From Urbifossiella limnaea (GTDB lineage: Bacteria > Planctomycetota > Planctomycetia > Gemmatales > Gemmataceae), in assembly GCF_007747215.1 (NCBI RefSeq), contig NZ_CP036273.1:5874322-5938321 (forward strand): a stretch of DNA of 64,000 nucleotides, read 5' to 3'. Shown piece after piece: positions 2,967 to 54,926 of the stretch (the stretch's first letter is position 1; each line of letters begins with the position of its first letter). A program made the translations under genes and the position numbers. The notes beneath the pieces are model-generated. The model saw nothing but the letters and a program-made list of their open reading frames with translations, was not told the origin of the DNA and did no database searches.

Positions 2967-3938
2967 TTAGTTGAGGAGGGAGGCCGGGTCCACGTTCACG
3001 CCGTCCTTCCAGCCGGACATGTACACCAGCGCCGTGTACGCCGACCCGCCGGTGACGTACTTGCGGGCGGACCGCACGGAGCCGTCGCCCATTGCGAACT
3101 GGACCACGCCGGCGTGCCGGCTGCCGAACCCGTTCCACCCGTTGGCGTCGGTCGGGTTCGGGATGCCGCCCCACGCCGTCGGCAGCGGGCCGGCCAGCGC
3201 CCAGCTCCAGGCGAACTGCCGCGGGCCGACCTCGGGGTCTCCGAGGGCCTCGCCGAACATCAGGGTGTTGCTCAGCCCGTCGGCCGCGGCCGCCTGCCCG
3301 GCGGTGCCCGACGAGCGGTTCGTGAACAGGCCGGCGTACTGCGGCAGCACCGCGTCGGCGTACCCGCCGACGGCCAGGTAGCTCGTCTTGCCCAGGGCCG
3401 GCCCCCACGGCGGGGCGAAGTACCACCGCGCCAGCCGGGCCGACGACCCGGCCACGTCCACCACCGGCCAGGCCGCGTTCTGCGCCGCCTCGACGTCGCC
3501 GTCCGAGGGGCAGACGAAGCTCTTGATTTTGCTCTGCGCCGCGGTCGCCGGGCCGGCGTTCCACAGCACGTGCGAGTACTGCCTCCTCGGCGCGAGGTAG
3601 TCCGGGGCGACGCCGGTGGCGAACACCGCCGCGACGCTCGTCTGCTCCACGTAGGGGAGCAGGTGCGGCAGCGTGCCGACGCCCTGGGTGGTGGCCACGG
3701 TCGCCGAGGAGTACGTGCCGGCGGCCGTCATGTGCAGCAGCGCCCCGGGGGCGAACGTGCCGGTGGTGGCCTCGTAGTTGTGGGCACCCAGCGCGATCTG
3801 CTTCAGGTTGTTCTGGCAGGCGCTCCGGGCGGCGGCCTCGCGGACCTTCTGAACGGCCGGCAGGAGCAGGCCGATGAGGACCGCGATGATGGCGATGACG
3901 ACGAGCAGCTCGATGAGTGTGAACGCGCGACGTGTCAT
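2967..3938 (-). CDS. DUF1559 protein with type IV pilin-like N-terminus, module A
   Basis: 323 residues. The N-terminus has the prepilin signature: short basic leader, then [18 protein letters not shown], with Ala rather than Gly before the Phe. This is followed by the DUF1559 block ([14 protein letters not shown]), Cys in VCPSDGD, the SNTLMFGE motif, and the C-terminal H4-type motif ([16 protein letters not shown]) that ends the domain. Such pseudopilin-like proteins are strongly expanded in Planctomycetes and are thought to be processed and assembled in the envelope; their job is not established. The lipoprotein gene follows at 15 nt. Confidence 0.9.
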
Positions 3939-4432: not shown

Positions 4433-5470
4433 TCACAGCTGGCTGGGGTCGGCCACCTTCAGGTCGGTGTGGCCCGAGTGGTAGATGTACTGGTCGTACT
4501 GGTTCGGGGCGGCGGCGTTGCCGGAGCCCGCGGTGCCGGGGTAGCGGATGGTGCGGATCGACCCGTCGCCGAGGCCGAACACCATCACGCCCGTGTGCCG
4601 GCTGCCCATCCGGTACCAGTTGGGATCACTGATCGGCGGCTCGGTGGCACCCCAGGCCATCGGCATGTAGCCCGAGGAGATCCACGCCGGGGTGACCGGC
4701 TGCCAGCCTGCGCCGGGGGGGCCCTTCGTGTTGTACTCGCCGAACAGGAAGGTGTTGCTCGTGCCGTCCTGCATGGTCGCCAGCTTGGTCACCGACCGGT
4801 TGTAGAAGGCCCCGAGGTACGTGTCGTTGACCGACCCGCCCGGGAACGACGCGGTGATCCCCATCCGCCCGCCGACGGCCATGTAGTTCGTCTTCCCGAA
4901 CGCCGTGTCGCCGATGGCGATGATGTTCACCGAGAACGACGAGGTGCTGGCCAGGAACGAGTTGATGGTACAGTCCCACGAGCTGTCGCTGCCGGTGTCC
5001 GACGGGCACAGGAAGAACTTGATCCGCGCCCCGCGGTTGTTCCAGAAGCTGGCGATGGTGCTGAAGTCGGCGTACCGCTTGGCCGGCGACAGGTAGTCGG
5101 GGGCCGGGGCGCCCGCCATCAGGAGCTGGTACAGCGGCGCCTGCTCGACGTACGGCAGCAGGTGGACCAGCGGGCCGACCAGCTGGCAGTTATACCCGAT
5201 GGTCGCCGGGCGGGTGCCGGTGCCGTAGGGGGCGTCGCTCGGCATCGCCCCGAGGAAGCCCGGCGGAAGCTGGCCGTTGGCCGACTCGTAGGCGTGGCAG
5301 GCGAGCGAGATCTGCTTCAGGTTGTTCGTGCAGGTGCTGCGGGCGGCGGCCTCGCGGACCTTCTGGACGGCCGGCAGCAGCAGGCCGATCAGGATCGCGA
5401 TGATGGCGATCACGACCAGCAACTCGATGAGCGTGAACCCGGACCGGCGACTGCCCGTGCGGGTGGACAT
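4433..5470 (-). CDS. DUF1559 protein with type IV pilin-like N-terminus, module B
   Basis: 345 residues. Prepilin-like start ([21 protein letters not shown], Gly before Phe), then NNLKQISLACHAYE, a Cys in FLCPSDTG, NTFLFGEYNTKG, and the terminal block RHTGVMVFGLGDGSIR. The frame is open far upstream, but ATG at 5470 has GGAGG at 8-nt spacing and opens directly into the prepilin leader. It is followed by the polyproline lipoprotein. It belongs to the same family as modules A and C, with a divergent central region. Confidence 0.9.
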   Translation of the reverse strand: MSTRTGSRRSGFTLIELLVVIAIIAILIGLLLPAVQKVREAAARSTCTNNLKQISLACHAYESANGQLPPGFLGAMPSDAPYGTGTRPATIGYNCQLVGPLVHLLPYVEQAPLYQLLMAGAPAPDYLSPAKRYADFSTIASFWNNRGARIKFFLCPSDTGSDSSWDCTINSFLASTSSFSVNIIAIGDTAFGKTNYMAVGGRMGITASFPGGSVNDTYLGAFYNRSVTKLATMQDGTSNTFLFGEYNTKGPPGAGWQPVTPAWISSGYMPMAWGATEPPISDPNWYRMGSRHTGVMVFGLGDGSIRTIRYPGTAGSGNAAAPNQYDQYIYHSGHTDLKVADPSQL

Positions 5471-6148: not shown

Positions 6149-6689
6149 CGGGGGCTCCGGGTTAGATGCCGCCGGGGTCCACGGTCTCGCCGAGCGAGGC
6201 CGTGGACATGGCCACGAACGGCAGCGTGGGTGTGCCGAGGGCGGGCTTGCGGAGGCCGCGGACCGACCCGTCGCCCAGCGCCGCCATCGCCACCCCGGTG
6301 TGGTTGCTGGAGTAGTCGCAGAACCACAGGTTCGCCTCGTCCGGGATGCCGAACAGGCTCGGGTACGGGCCGCCGCTGATCCACGACCACGCCAGCTTCG
6401 AGATCTGCGGGGCCGACGCCCGCTGGCTCCCCGGCCCCAACGACTCCACGAACATCAGCGTGTTACTCGACCCGTCGGTGATGCCGACGAGCGTGAGCTT
6501 GCCGACCGCGGTGATCGTGCTCGACCCGAACGGTCGCACCCGGGCGGTGGTGAAGACGCCGGGCATGTTGTCCACCGGCACGCCGCCCACGGCGACGTTC
6601 GGCCCCATGACGCCGTACCGCCCGGCCACCCCGACGTAGTTCGTCACCCCCAGGTTGGCCGCGGCCGTGAACAGCGTCACGTCCCACTA

Positions 6690-7751: not shown

Positions 7752-8260
7752 TACTGGTAGCTGCTGCCGTTGAGGGTGTTGTGCCCCGGCCCGGTGTCGT
7801 AGTCGGGGGTGAAGTTGACGGCCGACGGGCACTCGAACGGCTTGACCCGCGCCCGCGCCGGGGCGGTGTTCGCCGCGTTGTAGAACCACCCGGGCGACGC
7901 GGCGTACGGGTCCCAGTTCACCACCAACTGGTTGTAGATCGCCCCCTGCTCGACGTGCGGCAGGATGTAGCCCAGCACGCTGACGGCGTTCCCCGCGGTG
8001 GAGTAGTTGGCCGCGGACGTGCCGCCCTGCGTGTAGTTCACCGAGGCGATCCCCGGCGGCACCGAGCCGTTGGCCGACTCGTACGAGTGGACGCCGAGGG
8101 CGATCTGCTTCAGGTTGTTCGAGCACGAGCTCCGGGCGGCGGCCTCGCGGACCTTCTGCACGGCCGGCAGCAGCAGCCCGATCAGGATGGCGATGATGGC
8201 GATGACGACGAGCAACTCGATCAGCGTGAAGCCCCGGCGGCCGGGGCGGCGGGCGGGCAT

Positions 8261-13790: not shown

Positions 13791-14771
13791 CTACGCCGCG
13801 CCGGCGTTCCGGCAGCAGTCCCCGAACCGCTTGCCGCTGTTGCACGGGCACGGGTCGGCGCGGCCGAGCCGCCCGGCGGGGCGCGGCAGGTGGCTGGTCA
13901 GGGCCGCCGGGTCCTGGTGGAACAGCCGGCGGAGCAGGTCGTACAGCCCGGGCGCCTTCGCCTTCAGCCGCGCCGGCGAGCCGAAGAAGTACTCGGACAG
14001 CACGGCGAAGAACTCGTGCTCGTTGGTGTACGCGTAGTCGCTGATCCCCGCCCGCCGGTTGGCCGGGTGCGCGAGTTCGCGGGCCACGTACCCGACCCAC
14101 TGCCGCGCCACCTCGACCGGCACCTCCGGGGGCAGCCCGCCCTCCGCCTCGCGCTGCTCCACGAGGTGCGCGAACTCGTGGACGCCGACGTTCTCCGGCC
14201 CGGGCTGGTCCGCGAACCCGGCCAGCAGCGCCGGCTTCGACAGCACCACCACCCCGCGCAGGTGGCCCAGGCCGGTGAGCCCGAGGATGTTCGGGGCGGC
14301 CGCCGCGTCGGTCTGGTACTTGTCGTCGAACGTGCCCGGGTAGACGAGCACCTCGCCGAGCCGGCGGTACTCCCAGTCGTCGAACCCGAACACCGGGATG
14401 ACCGCGCCGGCCGCGACGAGCACCCGCACGGTGTCGTCCACCTCGGCCCGGACGCCGGTGACGCGGACCTCGTCGAGGAACACCGCGACCATCCCCCGGA
14501 ACCGGGCCTTCCCGGCGTCGTCGAGGGCGCGGTAGTAGCGCACGCGGCGGTCGAGGACCGCCTGCCACGCGGGGGGGAACGGCCGGGCGGCGACCGCGAG
14601 GCGGCGCCGGACCCGGCGCCGGAGAAGCCAGTACGCGGCGGGGGCGAGACCCAGCAGGGCGAACAGCGGCGGGAAGACCCAGCCCAGCACCGCGCCCGCG
14701 GCCGCGACGGCGGCGGCCACCGTTTGGGCGTGGCGGCGGTTGTGGCGGTCGATCGCGGGGGTCACGAGCAC
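13791..14771 (-). CDS. MtfA-like zinc peptidase (M90) with membrane anchor and SEC-C tail
   Basis: 326 residues. Hydrophobic segment at about 17-50, then an MtfA/M90 domain with HEFAH at 198-202 (zinc ligands and catalytic Glu) and a conserved NEHEFFAVLSEYFF helix. The C-terminus carries a SEC-C zinc motif (C308, C310, C319, C320 in PCPCNSGKRFGDCC). Enterobacterial MtfA is a cytosolic peptidase that binds the regulator Mlc and is glucose-linked; it lacks both the anchor and the SEC-C motif. These additions suggest a membrane-tethered form with its own recruitment module. It is transcribed with the lactonase gene. Confidence 0.88.
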   Translation of the reverse strand: MLVTPAIDRHNRRHAQTVAAAVAAAGAVLGWVFPPLFALLGLAPAAYWLLRRRVRRRLAVAARPFPPAWQAVLDRRVRYYRALDDAGKARFRGMVAVFLDEVRVTGVRAEVDDTVRVLVAAGAVIPVFGFDDWEYRRLGEVLVYPGTFDDKYQTDAAAAPNILGLTGLGHLRGVVVLSKPALLAGFADQPGPENVGVHEFAHLVEQREAEGGLPPEVPVEVARQWVGYVARELAHPANRRAGISDYAYTNEHEFFAVLSEYFFGSPARLKAKAPGLYDLLRRLFHQDPAALTSHLPRPAGRLGRADPCPCNSGKRFGDCCRNAGAA

Positions 14772-14850
14772 GACGCGCCACCTCCGCGGCCGGCGGATGA
14801 AGTCCGGGGCGCATCAATTTTACGCTCGCCCGGACGGCCGCGGCCCGCCG

Positions 14851-16689
14851 CTACCGCCAGTCGGGGGCGCCGAGCGTGATCGTCCACTGGCTCGGCCCCT
14901 TCGCCGACAGCACCGTGCGGGCGTTCTTCCCGTCCGGGTCGGCGACGACCAGCCGCGACTCCGTTTCGGTGCGGGCGCGCTCGTCCGGTGTACCCGGGTG
15001 GACCTGCCGCCAGGTGTACGCGATCCGCTTCCCGTCTGGGGACCAGCAGTAGCCGTGCAGGTCGCCGCCGGGCGGCACCCCCGTAACCGGTGTCACCCGG
15101 CCCGTTGCGGTGTCGATCAGCACCAGGTACTCCTCATCCACATCGACCCGGTTAGCGCCGGCCTTGAAGACCGGGCGCTGCCCGAGCATCCGCGTCCCGT
15201 CCGGCGACGGCATCCCGCCGGCGACGACGGCCGTCGCGTCGGTCACCGCCCTGGCCTCGGTGCCGTCCCGGTTCATGACGTAGACGCGGGCCGTCGGGTC
15301 GGCGGGGGTGCCGCCGAGCCGCGTCGTGGAGAACCGGCCGTCGGCCAGCCACCCGGTGACGATGTGGTCGGCCGGCAGCTTCACGGCCGACGCCTTCCCG
15401 GTCTTCGCGTCCACGACGCGGTGCTCGAAGTTCGGGCCGCCCTTCCCGCCCGGCCGGTCGTTCGCCCGCGCGACGACGAGTTCGGTCCCGTCGGCCGACC
15501 AGTACGCCGACTCGCCGTCGACGTTCAGGTCGGCCGGCTCCCCCTTCCCGCTGGCGGGGAAGACGAACAGCGACCGCCGTGAGACCGCATCCCCCTGGGC
15601 CGCGCCGACCGAGCGGACGACCGCCACCCGCGTCCCGTCCGGCGACAGCTTGGCGTCGTAGGCGTACCCGGCCTCGGGGTCGAACGCGGCGACCGGCGTC
15701 AGGTTCTTGCCGTCCGGATCGACCATCACGAGAGCGCGGTCCTTGCTGAGCAGGATGCGGTTCGGCCCCTTCGCTACCGGCGCGACCTTCGACGCGGCCG
15801 GCTGCGCCGCGGCGACGCGCGCCGGCGGGGCGGGCTGTGGCGCGGTGGCAGACGGCGCGGCGAGCAGGCCGGCGGCGACGGCGGCGGACGCGACCGCGGC
15901 GAGGGCCAGCGGCACGAGCTTGAGCTTGTGAAGGAACATGGCGCGAAGGACTCCGTGCGAGAGGGCCGCGACCGCGGCCGGGGCGTGCTCCGGAGTCAGC
16001 GCCGCCGCCACCGCCCGCGCCGGCAGGTCGGCCGGGACCGCGGCCGCAGCCGCGCCCCCGAGCGCGACCGCCAGCCCGCCGGCGCCGGGCGCCACGCCGC
16101 GGGCGGTCAGCCGCGCGGCGAGTCGCTTCCGCGCCGCGGCGAGGCGGCTGTACACCGTCCCCACCGGCACCCCGAGCGCCGCCGCCACCTCCACCTGCGA
16201 CTCGTCGCGGAGGTCGCACCGGACCAGCAGCGCCCGGTCCTTCTCGGACAGCGCCGCCAGTTCGGCGTCGATCACGGCGGCCAGGTCGGGCTCGGGGCCG
16301 ACGGCACTACCGGCGCTGTCGGTAAGGTGGGACGACGGCGCTTCGCGAGCGGAGCGGCGGGCGGCCATCGTGCGGGCCTCGCGGGCGGTGCGGACCGCCA
16401 CCCCGTACAGCCAGCCGCCGACGGCCTCGCGCGGCACCACCGCCGCGGCCCGTCGCGCCAGCACGACGAAGACGGCCTGGAAGGCGTCCTCGGCGTCCTG
16501 GTGGTGGCCGGTGGCGCGGCGGCAGACGGCGAACACCATCGGCCCGAACCGCTCGACGAGCGCCGCGAACGCCTCCCCGTCGCGGGCGGCGACGAAGGCG
16601 GCGAGCAGGGCGCCGTCCGGGCGCGGGTCGGCGGGGGCGACGGCCCGGCGGGCGCGGGCGACGGCGGCGGACAGCCCGGGTGGGGGCAT
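14851..16689 (-). CDS. ECF sigma factor fused to a membrane segment and TolB/WD40-like propeller
   Basis: 612 residues. Sigma region 2 (about 28-95, with DAEDAFQAVFVVLARR) and region 4 (about 135-195, with AALGVPVGTVYSRLAAARKR) are complete. A hydrophobic segment at about 262-285 follows a basic juxtamembrane stretch (RAMFLHKLKL). Residues 300-612 form a propeller with PDG repeats (KLSPDGTRVAV, WSADGTELVV, WSPDGKRIAY). The layout predicts a cytoplasmic sigma factor tethered to an extracytoplasmic sensor, a type known from planctomycete ECF groups. How the sigma domain is freed is unknown. It is divergent from a second ECF fusion at 17015. Confidence 0.88.
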   Translation of the reverse strand: MPPPGLSAAVARARRAVAPADPRPDGALLAAFVAARDGEAFAALVERFGPMVFAVCRRATGHHQDAEDAFQAVFVVLARRAAAVVPREAVGGWLYGVAVRTAREARTMAARRSAREAPSSHLTDSAGSAVGPEPDLAAVIDAELAALSEKDRALLVRCDLRDESQVEVAAALGVPVGTVYSRLAAARKRLAARLTARGVAPGAGGLAVALGGAAAAAVPADLPARAVAAALTPEHAPAAVAALSHGVLRAMFLHKLKLVPLALAAVASAAVAAGLLAAPSATAPQPAPPARVAAAQPAASKVAPVAKGPNRILLSKDRALVMVDPDGKNLTPVAAFDPEAGYAYDAKLSPDGTRVAVVRSVGAAQGDAVSRRSLFVFPASGKGEPADLNVDGESAYWSADGTELVVARANDRPGGKGGPNFEHRVVDAKTGKASAVKLPADHIVTGWLADGRFSTTRLGGTPADPTARVYVMNRDGTEARAVTDATAVVAGGMPSPDGTRMLGQRPVFKAGANRVDVDEEYLVLIDTATGRVTPVTGVPPGGDLHGYCWSPDGKRIAYTWRQVHPGTPDERARTETESRLVVADPDGKNARTVLSAKGPSQWTITLGAPDWR

Positions 16690-17014
16690 CGGTCAAACTC
16701 CGGTCGGCCGGCACCACGCCGGCCTGCCTGTATTGGGTCGCCGGCGGCCGACCCTTCGGTCGGAGCGGGTGGAATTTCCACCACCGGCCCGACTGCGGGG
16801 TGCAGTGCTTTCCCCGCAAGGGTTTACGTCACTTCCCGGCGGGCGGCATCGCTTCAACGATCTTTTGTGTCATCGACTCAATGCGTGCCTCGACCCCCCG
16901 GGGGGGTCGGCGACACACAATGAACCCGGCCCGAACGACGGCCGGCGGCGAAAAGTGTATGCGCCACCGCTCCGGCAGGCACATGATGGGTGAGCCGACC
17001 TCCGGGCCGCTGCC
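16690..17014. promoter_or_regulatory. Shared upstream region of two divergent ECF-fusion genes
   Basis: 325 bp with no gene, presumed to hold both promoters. Its main feature is a GC palindrome at 16891-16909 (CGACCCCCC / GGGGGGGTCG). It is flanked by a wider imperfect repeat, TTGTGTCATCG before it and CGACACACAA after it. I cannot place -35/-10 boxes with confidence; autoregulation by either sigma factor is possible but unproven. Confidence 0.45.
16891..16909. promoter_or_regulatory. GC palindrome, possible operator
   Basis: Near-perfect palindrome of C and G runs bounded by CGA/TCG, midway between the two divergent sigma-fusion genes and nested in an outer TTGTGT/ACACAA pair. An operator or cruciform role is inference. 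Confidence 0.4.
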
Positions 17015-18913
17015 ATGACCCCCACTCACAAGCCGGCGACAGTGCTGAACTGCCTCCGGGCCGTCGCCGACGGTCCGGCCGACGCGGCGCTGCTGACCCG
17101 GTTCAGCCACGACCGCGACGAGGCGGCGTTCGAACTGCTGGTGTGGCGGCACGCGGGGATGGTGCTGGCCGTGTGCCGCGCCGTCCTCCGCGACCACCAC
17201 GCTGCCGAGGACGCCTGTCAGGCCACGTTCCTGGCCCTCGCCCGGCAGGCGCACGCCGTCGGCGGCCGCGGCACCGCCGCCGGCTGGCTCTACCGCGTCG
17301 CCCGCCGCACCGCCGTCCGCGCTGCCCGTCGCCGCGGCGTTCGTGCGGTTGATGCCGTGCTCGACCACCTGCCGGCGCCCGCGGCCGGGGGCGAGCCCGA
17401 CGCCGACGCCGTGGCCGCGCTGCACGACGAACTCGATCGGCTGCCCGAGAAGTACCGCACGCCGGTGCTGCTGTGCTTCCTCGAAGGACTGACTTACGCC
17501 GACGCCGCCCGCCGGCTCGGCTGGCCGGTCGGCACCGTGGCCGGCCGGGTGGCGCGGGCGAAGGACCGGCTGCGGGCGCGGCTCACGGGCCGCGGCGTCG
17601 CCGTGCCGGCGGCGGGGGCAGTCGCACTGGTGGGGGCGGTGAACGTGGTGCGGCCGGCGTTCGCGGCGGCCACGACACAGGCGGCGGCGACGTTCGCGGC
17701 GGGGGGCGTGCCCGCGGTGTCCGGCCCGGTACTCGAACTGGCGAAGGGAGCGGTAAGAACCATGATCGTGTCGAAACTCCAGTGGGCGGCCGCGGCGCTG
17801 GTGGCCGTGACGGCCCTGGCCGCGGGCGGCGTGTGGGCCGGCGGCCAGCCGCCCGGCGCGGGCGGGTCGGCGGGCGCGCCCCCGGCGGCGGCGGCGCAGC
17901 CGGTCGCGCCACCGCCGGCGGCCGATCGAACGGCGACTGCCTCGCAGAGGCGGCGGAGCCTGAACAACCTGAAGCAGATTCTGCTGGCGGTCCACAACTA
18001 CGAGTCGACTTACGGCCACCTGCCTTCCGACATCCGCGACCCGTCCGGGAAGGCGCTGCTGAGCTGGCGGGTGGCCCTGCTGCCGTACCTGGAGCAGGAC
18101 AACCTGTACCGGCAGTTCAAGCTGACCGAGCCGTGGGACAGCGAGCACAACCTGAAGCTGCTGGACAAGATGCCGCCGTCGTACCGCGTCGGCTTCGAGC
18201 CCGCGGGTGCGACGCACACCTTCTACCAGGCGTTCGCCGGGCCGGGCACGCCGTTCGGCCCCCAGCGCCCGGGCGACCCGCCCGGTGCCGGTGGCGGTGC
18301 CAGCGGCCCGTCAGCGGGCCTGCAGCCGCCGGCGGGTACGGGCGTCGGCCCGCGCGGGTCGCGGCCGCTGCGGATGGCCGACGTGACGGACGGCACGTCG
18401 AACACGTTCGGGGTGGTGGAGGTGGGGCCGGCGGTGGCGTGGACGAAGCCGACTGACGTGGCGTACAGCCGGAAGGGACCGCTGCCGAAGTTGGCGTGGC
18501 CGTTCACGAACGGGTTCCACGTGGGGATGATGGACGGCGCGGCCTTCGCCGTGCGGCCGGGCCTGAGCGAAGCCGACCTGCGGAAGCTGATCGAGATCGA
18601 CGACGGCCAGCCGTCGCCGGACCTGCGTAAGCTCCGCCCGGCGACGCCGGCCGACACGCCCGAGGAGCGGGCGATGCTGCGTGACCAGGTGGCGCGGAAC
18701 CGCACGAAGCTGGTCGAGGTCGAACGGCTGATGAAGGAGCACGTCGAGCTGCTGGGCGTGGAACTGGGCAAGGCGGCCGACAGCGGCACGGCCGAGGAGC
18801 ACGGCGCCGGCCTCGACCACATCATCGACGAGCTGCGGCAGCGGAACCGGTCGCTGCGTGGCCAGAAGGGCGAGCCGCCGCCCCCGCCACCCGGCCCGGC
18901 GCCGAAGCGGTAG
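17015..18913 (+). CDS. ECF sigma factor fused to a membrane segment and DUF1559 domain
   Basis: 632 residues. Sigma region 2 at about 30-95 (AAEDACQATFLALARQ) and region 4 at about 130-190 (LPEKYRTPVLLCFLEGL; TYADAARRLGWPVGTVAGRV). A basic juxtamembrane stretch (RTMIVSKLQW) and hydrophobic segment 255-275 follow, then a Pro/Ala linker and a DUF1559-type domain from about 315 (RRSLNNLKQILLAVHNYE, SWRVALLPYLEQDNLY, TDGTSNTFGVVEVG). The tail (about 540-620) is charged and helical and ends in a proline run. The domain lacks its usual prepilin leader; the internal membrane helix takes that place. The juxtamembrane stretch resembles that of the divergent ECF fusion. Confidence 0.88.
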   Translation: MTPTHKPATVLNCLRAVADGPADAALLTRFSHDRDEAAFELLVWRHAGMVLAVCRAVLRDHHAAEDACQATFLALARQAHAVGGRGTAAGWLYRVARRTAVRAARRRGVRAVDAVLDHLPAPAAGGEPDADAVAALHDELDRLPEKYRTPVLLCFLEGLTYADAARRLGWPVGTVAGRVARAKDRLRARLTGRGVAVPAAGAVALVGAVNVVRPAFAAATTQAAATFAAGGVPAVSGPVLELAKGAVRTMIVSKLQWAAAALVAVTALAAGGVWAGGQPPGAGGSAGAPPAAAAQPVAPPPAADRTATASQRRRSLNNLKQILLAVHNYESTYGHLPSDIRDPSGKALLSWRVALLPYLEQDNLYRQFKLTEPWDSEHNLKLLDKMPPSYRVGFEPAGATHTFYQAFAGPGTPFGPQRPGDPPGAGGGASGPSAGLQPPAGTGVGPRGSRPLRMADVTDGTSNTFGVVEVGPAVAWTKPTDVAYSRKGPLPKLAWPFTNGFHVGMMDGAAFAVRPGLSEADLRKLIEIDDGQPSPDLRKLRPATPADTPEERAMLRDQVARNRTKLVEVERLMKEHVELLGVELGKAADSGTAEEHGAGLDHIIDELRQRNRSLRGQKGEPPPPPPGPAPKR

Positions 18914-18928
18914 CGGGCGGGGGCCGGG

Positions 18929-19597
18929 TCACTGCTTCCACTGCCCCGCCACCGTGACCGCGAACCCGAGCGACGCCTTCGTCGCGCCGGCCGCCACGGC
19001 CCGGCGCGTCGTCGCCACCCACACGCCGTCGCCCTTGCCCACCACCTTCGGGCCGGCGGCCTTGTCGAAGTTCGGGAACAAGAGCAGCACGGCCGGGTGC
19101 TTCCCCTCGTTGACCGTGCTGCTCAGTTCGATCAAGTCCTTCACTTCCATCGGCTCCGCCGATCGATCCTTCCCGGCCGGGCTGAGGAGGCAGAAGTCCG
19201 GGTGCGGGGCGGTGCCGGTGTGGTCGCCGATGTCCGGCTGCACCGCGAACCGCAGCGTGTACACGCCCGCCGCCAGTTCCTGCTTCCGGAAGTCGGTGAA
19301 CGCCGTCGGGAACTCGATCGCCCCGACCAGCGCCCCTTCGGGGATTTCGCGGTACGTGATGCCGTTCTTGAGCTGCTCCGGCGTGGCCTTCACCGGGATC
19401 ACGTCGCGGAACCAGACGCGCATCACGACGGCGTCACCGGAACGCACGACGAGCGCGTCCTTGCTCAGGAGGGTGCGCACCGGTTCGGCGAGCGCCGCGG
19501 GCGGGTCGAGCGCTTCGGTCTTGGCGGCGAACGGCTCGTCCGGCCGGGCGAGGGCCGCGGCGGGAAGCAGCAACAGGGCGGCGGCCAGGAGTCGCAT
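18929..19597 (-). CDS. Secreted hypothetical protein downstream of argC
   Basis: 222 residues. Sec signal peptide (MRLLAAALLLLPAAALA), then a single soluble domain of mixed strands that I do not recognise (motifs VWFRDVIPVKATPEQL, YTLRFAVQPDIGDHTG). The frame extends upstream into argC, but ATG at 19597 opens the signal peptide and has AAAGGA at 6 nt. It lies 23 nt after the argC stop and could be cotranscribed with it, although a periplasmic protein has no obvious link to arginine synthesis. Confidence 0.75.
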   Translation of the reverse strand: MRLLAAALLLLPAAALARPDEPFAAKTEALDPPAALAEPVRTLLSKDALVVRSGDAVVMRVWFRDVIPVKATPEQLKNGITYREIPEGALVGAIEFPTAFTDFRKQELAAGVYTLRFAVQPDIGDHTGTAPHPDFCLLSPAGKDRSAEPMEVKDLIELSSTVNEGKHPAVLLLFPNFDKAAGPKVVGKGDGVWVATTRRAVAAGATKASLGFAVTVAGQWKQ

Positions 19598-54137: not shown

Positions 54138-54926
54138 ATGCCCGACCTCGTCCCGCCGCTCGTCCGCCGCCACCGCCGGGCGTTCCTCGCGTCCGCCGCC
54201 GGGGGCGTCGTCGCCGCCGCCGGCTACGGGCTGGTGTCGGCCGTGCGGAAGGTACGGATGTCCGCTTCCCGCTCGCGCGACCTCTGAAACCTCAAGCAGC
54301 TCGCGTTGGCGGTCGCCAACTACACCGACGCCAACGGCCACTACCCGCCAGCGTACCTTCCGGGTCCGGACGGCCGGCCGTGGCACAGCTGGCGCGTGCT
54401 CGTCCTGCCGTACATCGAGCAGTACACGCTGTTCAAGGAGTACCGCTTCGACGAGCCGTGGGACGGGCCGAACAACCGCCGCCTCGCCGGGCGGATGCCG
54501 TCGCTGTACCGGTTCCACGCCGGCACCGAGCCCGACACCACGACCTCGAACTACCTCGCCGTAGTCGGCCCCGAGACGCTGTGGCCGGGTACGAAGAAGG
54601 TGACGCCGGCCGCCGTCACCGACCGGCTCGCGTCCACGATCCTGGTGGTGGAGAATTTGGGCCTCGGCGTCCACTGGATGGAGCCGCGCGACCTGGTGCT
54701 GGCGGACATGGACCTGCGGGTGAACAGCCCCGCCGGCGTGAGCAGCCCGTACACGTGGCCGGGCGTGGCGATGCTCGACGGTAGCCTACACACGCTCCGC
54801 GCCGAGCTGCGGCCGGAGGTGCTGCGGGCGCTGCTGACGATCGACGGGAACGAGCCGCTCGCCGACGACGGCGCCGGCGGCTGGGACTTCCTCGCCGACG
54901 GCCGCGACCGGCCGCTGGTGCCGTGA
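54138..54926 (+). pseudogene. DUF1559-type gene with an in-frame TGA at 54285-54287
   Basis: The 263-codon frame starts with a basic, twin-arginine-like leader (RRHRRAFLASAAGG) and is open except for one TGA at codon 50, directly before NLKQLALAVANYTDANG. The downstream 212 codons are intact and show the DUF1559 subtype of the ECF fusion at 17015: SWRVLVLPYIEQYTLF, EPWDGPNNRRLAGRMP. No decay is visible otherwise. Options are a recent nonsense mutation, a sequencing error, restart at a downstream TTG, or recoding of UGA. The TGA aligns with a position that is normally Asn in NNLKQ, which does not favour selenocysteine. Confidence 0.8.

Follow-up and report, generated by a model that had tools for sequence, protein, structure and literature searches.

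Two genes of Urbifossiella limnaea, here called p1 and p2, stand back to back in a window of 64,000 nucleotides (nt), the whole stretch of DNA analysed (NZ_CP036273.1, positions 5,874,322 to 5,938,321; coordinates below count from its first letter). Each encodes an extracytoplasmic function (ECF) sigma factor joined through a transmembrane (TM) segment to an outer domain. What is the role of the short stretch where linker and TM segment meet? Judged from the sequence, both genes are probably tethered ECF sigma factors with a conserved internal, in-frame translation start at this junction. The features follow, with the evidence for each in brackets; ORF stands for open reading frame and SD for Shine-Dalgarno.

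14851-16689, minus strand: p1 gene, ECF sigma factor-TM-PD40, 612 amino acids (ORF list, Pfam)
16360-16560, minus strand: p1 sigma-70 region 2, residues 44-110 (PF04542, 35.3 bits)
16120-16272, minus strand: p1 sigma-70 region 4, residues 140-190 (PF08281, 40.2 bits)
15951-15954, minus strand: SD-like GGAG within p1, with an 11-nt spacer to the junction ATG (sequence, family-wide tests; duplex -6.1 kcal/mol)
15937-15939, minus strand: p1 junction ATG (Met251), proposed internal start (sequence, family-wide tests)
14851-15939, minus strand: p1 proposed short product, 362 amino acids, signal-peptide-like segment and PD40 tail (predicted from in-frame ATG to stop)
15004-15045, minus strand: best PD40 stretch of p1, residues 549-562 (PF07676, 27.8 bits, cut-off 20.9)
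16690-17014: region between the divergent genes, 325 bp (sequence)
17015-18913, plus strand: p2 gene, ECF sigma factor-TM-DUF1559, 632 amino acids (ORF list, Pfam)
17141-17338, plus strand: p2 sigma-70 region 2, residues 43-108 (PF04542, 45.7 bits)
17417-17572, plus strand: p2 sigma-70 region 4, residues 135-186 (PF08281, 57.1 bits)
17744-17750, plus strand: SD-like AAGGGAG within p2 (GGAG at 17747-17750), with an 11-nt spacer to the junction ATG (sequence, family-wide tests; duplex -8.2 kcal/mol)
17762-17764, plus strand: p2 junction ATG (Met250), proposed internal start (sequence, family-wide tests)
17762-18913, plus strand: p2 proposed short product, 383 amino acids, signal-peptide-like segment and DUF1559 tail (predicted from in-frame ATG to stop)
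17957-18466, plus strand: p2 match to DUF1559, residues 315-484, covering 12-188 of the 268 profile positions (PF07596, 98.5 bits, cut-off 23.3)

By domain content, p1 and p2 are complete ECF sigma factors, as the initial annotation had it: sigma-70 regions 2 and 4 both exceed the gathering cut-off in each protein, Pfam finds no other sigma regions, and TIGR02937 matches the sigma part above its cut-off. The single helix that was said to link each sigma factor to its outer domain also stands, by hydropathy and layout, and the PD40 domain of p1 and the DUF1559 domain of p2 are both above the Pfam cut-offs. Pfam shows no FecR-like or zinc-finger anti-sigma domain in p1 or p2, and there is no Rfam match within 14500-19300. 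Could the p2 frame be an assembly fusion? This is ruled out, since the genome is a single contig of 7.8 Mb and an orthologous ECF-TM-DUF1559 protein is present in another genus. Directly upstream of that ortholog (L273/L298) no divergent ECF gene of similar size is present; thus the divergent pairing of p1 and p2 may not be conserved.

The sigma-TM-outer domain layout is ordinary in this genome, because about 25 such ECF-TM-X fusions are present, with very different tails. A search with sigma region 4 gave 82 places in the genome, some 30 of them with long open frames. In a Pfam census of 93 tails from this and related genomes the most frequent families are mainly WD40/PD40 propellers; the ECF-TM-DUF1559 arrangement is a rarer variant that is found in several sigma lineages. 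Seven further proteins of this type were found (L273, L269, L270, L271, L275, L148 and L177). L273, from another genus of the same family, is the p2 ortholog, with 59% identity over the first 260 residues; the sigma parts of the others are mostly 35-55% identical, with L269 and L270 at 63%. L109 and p2 have a common sigma part and linker and different tails; therefore the junction, as read from these sequences, is also a point of tail exchange. The genome also has 144 protein-kinase domain matches in its 7.8 Mb, some at most about 1 kb from sigma region 4 matches, e.g. 4699352 beside 4699801.

The two juxtamembrane stretches RAMFLHKLKL and RTMIVSKLQW had been noted as looking related. They align, are homologous and belong to a family motif of approximately LxxGVLRxM[FL]LxKLK. 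Related ORFs were gathered by protein profile only, with 61 genomes of the family and GTDB contigs as sources, and the 128 distinct ORFs were profile-aligned and anchored on a conserved linker Leu. Met is found at anchor +8 in 97 of the 128, and within +5 to +11 in 112. At the protein level the motif is marked by K at +12 (64%), K at +14 (62%) and G at +3 (64%). The fusions of U. limnaea itself show an in-frame ATG at the linker/TM junction, mostly after GGAG, GAGG or GGAGG, followed by a signal-peptide-like segment. p1-like genes read within the genus keep GGA-GTN and the junction ATG. Outside the Gemmataceae, in other families and classes of the phylum, the element is seen for example in L210 (GAA GGA GTC ACG CAG ATG) and L225 (CAA GGA GTA CTT AAA TCA ATG); several fusions from these other groups are without it. 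The start of the full-length p2 frame (16995-17014) carries no SD-like element and has a duplex energy of -2.5 kcal/mol, the internal site of the gene having -8.2.

Do the nucleotides at the junction follow from the amino acids they encode? An SD match, defined as at least 5 nt matching TAAGGAGGTGA, is present at 64 of the 112 junctions, against a mean of 27.9 and a maximum of 37 in 40 synonymous resamplings that drew on each ORF's own codons; among 877 other internal Mets it occurs at 10%. ORFs that lack a junction Met have such a match in only 1 of 16 cases, the exception being L034, where GGAGG is followed 7 nt later by GTG in place of the missing ATG. GGA encodes the motif Gly in 61 of 82 cases, whereas the remaining Gly codons of these ORFs are GGA in 830 of 7562 (11%; Fisher p = 3e-40). 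Where Glu precedes the motif Gly its codon is GAA in 33 of 37 cases, and Glu that replaces the Gly is GAG in 22 of 25; each choice completes an SD sequence (GAAGGAG or GAGGT). Codons -9 to +6 account for most of the fall in GC content at third codon positions (GC3) below what synonymous codon use predicts; a few smaller dips lie immediately before them. Folding of the mRNA, compared in 108 ORFs, is weaker than that of synonymous permutations only at -30, -15, 0 and +15 nt (paired t 7.6, 6.8, 6.9 and 4.0, respectively).

The positive control consisted of 29 DUF1559 gene starts, which the conserved leader allows to be placed with certainty. The mean SD duplex is -8.1 kcal/mol at junction ATGs, -7.1 at these gene starts and -4.0 at other internal Mets, and the minimum free energy of folding over -20 to +20 is -6.9, -7.8 and -11.3, respectively. 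The negative control was a set of 21 membrane Ser/Thr kinase-TM proteins of the same genome. A Met near the TM segment is present in 10% of these, against 87% of the ECF fusions, and the set shows no clear SD excess and no consistent change in mRNA structure. A general effect of TM segments as the source of the junction signal is thereby ruled out. The SD, start codon and open mRNA at the internal site exceed protein constraint and represent nucleotide-level selection across the family.

How might such genes work? Across planctomycetes, a large family of tethered ECF genes probably yields two products each by way of a conserved internal ribosome binding site and start, with outer domains exchanged at the junction. 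Translation from the upstream start would give the full-length sigma-TM-outer domain protein. Translation from the internal SD and ATG, a step deduced from sequence, would give only the outer domain, headed by a signal-peptide-like segment. One hydrophobic segment would thus have two uses, anchoring the long form in the membrane and serving the short form as export signal or anchor. The free outer domain may act with or against the tethered one, as a partner or decoy that sets a threshold, and the sigma part of the long form may be freed by regulated proteolysis, as in IutY of Pseudomonas putida; both are conjectures.

Several observations weigh against a functional internal start. Most members have a spacer of 11 nt (8 nt in most of those with Met at +7), whereas the DUF1559 gene starts have 5-9 nt, with one of 11; because the usual spacer exceeds that of genuine starts, the internal start may be weak. 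Assessed as a Sec signal peptide, the junction segment has a mean net charge of +1.7 and a core that ends about 25 residues from the Met, but enrichment for a signal peptidase I site is not clear-cut (z about 1.8). Sigma and tail were nowhere found as a natural pair of separate genes. Local folding of p1 and p2 taken alone is only modestly weaker than that of shuffles (z 1.5 and 1.1). The counts come from related sequences and hence are not independent events, although the bias is absent from synonymous sites in the rest of the same ORFs. Two short sigma ORFs, L189 and L190, were considered as split sigma/tail operons and rejected, as both are interrupted genes. The interruption in L189 is an inverted-repeat insertion (L189:1290-1450) that resembles a miniature inverted repeat transposable element and splits the TM codons of the ECF fusion gene a short way past its junction ATG.

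The initial annotation proposed that the two stretches share a tethering or cleavage mode. The shared junction motif stands; the cleavage motif gives way to an internal start, which on the sequence evidence explains the stretches better, since a cleavage site at the protein level would need no conservation of synonymous codons, GC3 or mRNA structure, and all three are conserved. An unlikely alternative, then, is a single product, a tethered ECF sigma factor activated by proteolysis in the style of IutY, with the junction motif as a juxtamembrane or protease-recognition element. The layout is that of IutY, which Prc and RseP set free (PMC8999054, PMC9249621), the motif is conserved as protein at the K and G positions given above, and the proteolytic part is itself compatible with an internal start. 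A single product leaves unexplained the GGA bias, the position-specific choice of GAA or GAG, the GC3 dip and the weak mRNA structure, and it must do without the anti-sigma domains for which Pfam shows no match in p1 and p2.

Other explanations accept the SD-like element and deny initiation. SD-like sequences within genes have been proposed to slow ribosomes, and here the element might pause elongating ribosomes at the TM segment and so aid membrane insertion; the 11-nt spacer, longer than at normal starts, would suit this. Pausing requires neither a conserved start codon nor open mRNA, yet both are present, the element largely disappears where the Met is absent, and the kinase-TM proteins of the same genome, which face the same insertion problem, are without it. 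These points make pausing quite improbable. Still less probable is a relic, in which loss of a stop codon fused a sigma gene to a downstream gene for a secreted protein and left the old SD and start behind as functionless remnants. Diverse and exchangeable tails, as in L109 and p2, fit such a history. The SD, however, sits in the sigma-side linker, is homologous across paralogs with unrelated tails, and is kept against a strong codon bias, whereas other synonymous sites of those lineages show no comparable preference. Internal SD elements can also stimulate frameshifting, as in E. coli dnaX, and a programmed frameshift at the element could release a free sigma factor. A frameshift is the least credible of these readings and can nearly be dismissed: alternative-frame stops after the junction are depleted, with 97 where 102.9 were expected and 6 where 23.0 were. 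The latter figure, a strong depletion, refers to third-frame stops from the junction to +25 codons in the 112 ECF fusion ORFs, under synonymous resampling.

The tail of p2 was described as a pilin-like DUF1559 domain. The DUF1559 match is well founded, and p2 shares with other DUF1559 (SBP_bac_10) proteins the NNLKQIxxAxHNYE motif. The pilin-like character does not hold: the match is partial, starting at profile position 12, with neither the N-terminal pilin-like leader nor the last third of the domain present. Ordinary DUF1559 genes of the same genome carry the leader; p2 lacks the GFTLIE motif and has its partial domain behind a sigma factor and a TM segment. Without its leader the p2 tail falls outside the normal pilin-like DUF1559 proteins, and the related ECF-linked DUF1559 tails inspected lack the leader as well. 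An AlphaFold model of the tail, built on a three-sequence alignment, has a mean pLDDT (predicted local distance difference test) of 37.6 and was left out of fold searches. Other DUF1559 matches in the window lie at 3069-3851, 4547-5365, 6252-6542 and 7784-8158 (minus strand) and at 54288-54488 (plus strand), four of them clustered; the whole genome has 62.

In one genome of the same genus, G258, some ten relatives of p1 of the ECF-PD40 type lie in tandem on a single contig (G258:C175:4-23034, part of it in L301 and L306). A p2-like sequence, 79% identical (L110:3001-3803), apparently lacks the junction and TM codons and runs straight into the start of DUF1559 near a contig end; the gap is either a deletion or an assembly error. 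Since L110 and the p2-like copy in G258 are cut short by contig ends close to the junction, they were excluded from the evidence.

How do these genes compare with known systems? Fusions of ECF sigma factors and propellers had been taken as known in planctomycetes, which the literature bears out. The accessible text of PMC8567305 describes ECFs with WD40-type C-terminal extensions in Gemmata and Tuwongella, expanded in Gemmataceae, and the recovery of some ECFs from detergent fractions of T. immobilis. These proteins share the ECF sigma domain with the window genes and the C-terminal propeller with p1, whereas p2 has DUF1559; that text reports no internal start. IutY, an ECF243 sigma/anti-sigma hybrid in the portions consulted of PMC8999054 and PMC9249621, likewise places ECF sigma factor, single TM segment and periplasmic domain in one polypeptide. 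It differs in its FecR-like tail, where p1 and p2 have PD40 and DUF1559, and in that activation by Prc and RseP has been shown for it; the same portions mention no internal start. Among the ECFs with regulatory extensions reviewed in PMC8999054, ECF48, ECF52 and ECF53 of Actinobacteria (e.g. SCO4117) are membrane-fused, with predicted proteolytic release. They resemble p1 and p2 in having a sigma factor, TM segment and extracytoplasmic extension; in contrast, they carry a zinc-finger anti-sigma part and belong to another phylum. Cas11 is an established internal in-frame translation product of cas8/cas10 (PMC11899642), and as in the proposed short products, an internal start in a longer gene gives a separate C-terminal product. 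Cas11 is a CRISPR effector subunit, whereas the proposed planctomycete case concerns sigma factor genes and a predicted export segment. For planctomycete ECF genes, a literature search, with central subscription papers outside its reach, turned up no description of an internal start.

The p1/p2 pair is thus a further example of a known fusion type, and the conserved internal start at the junction would be its new feature. The control of planctomycete ECF sigma factors with outer domains is largely unstudied, and the two-product idea is testable by one point mutation per gene. If it is true, the family would be a widespread case of internal in-frame initiation, with at least a dozen such paralogs in each genome, and genome annotations would miss one product of each such gene. 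The balance between free and tethered sensor would then be part of the switch.

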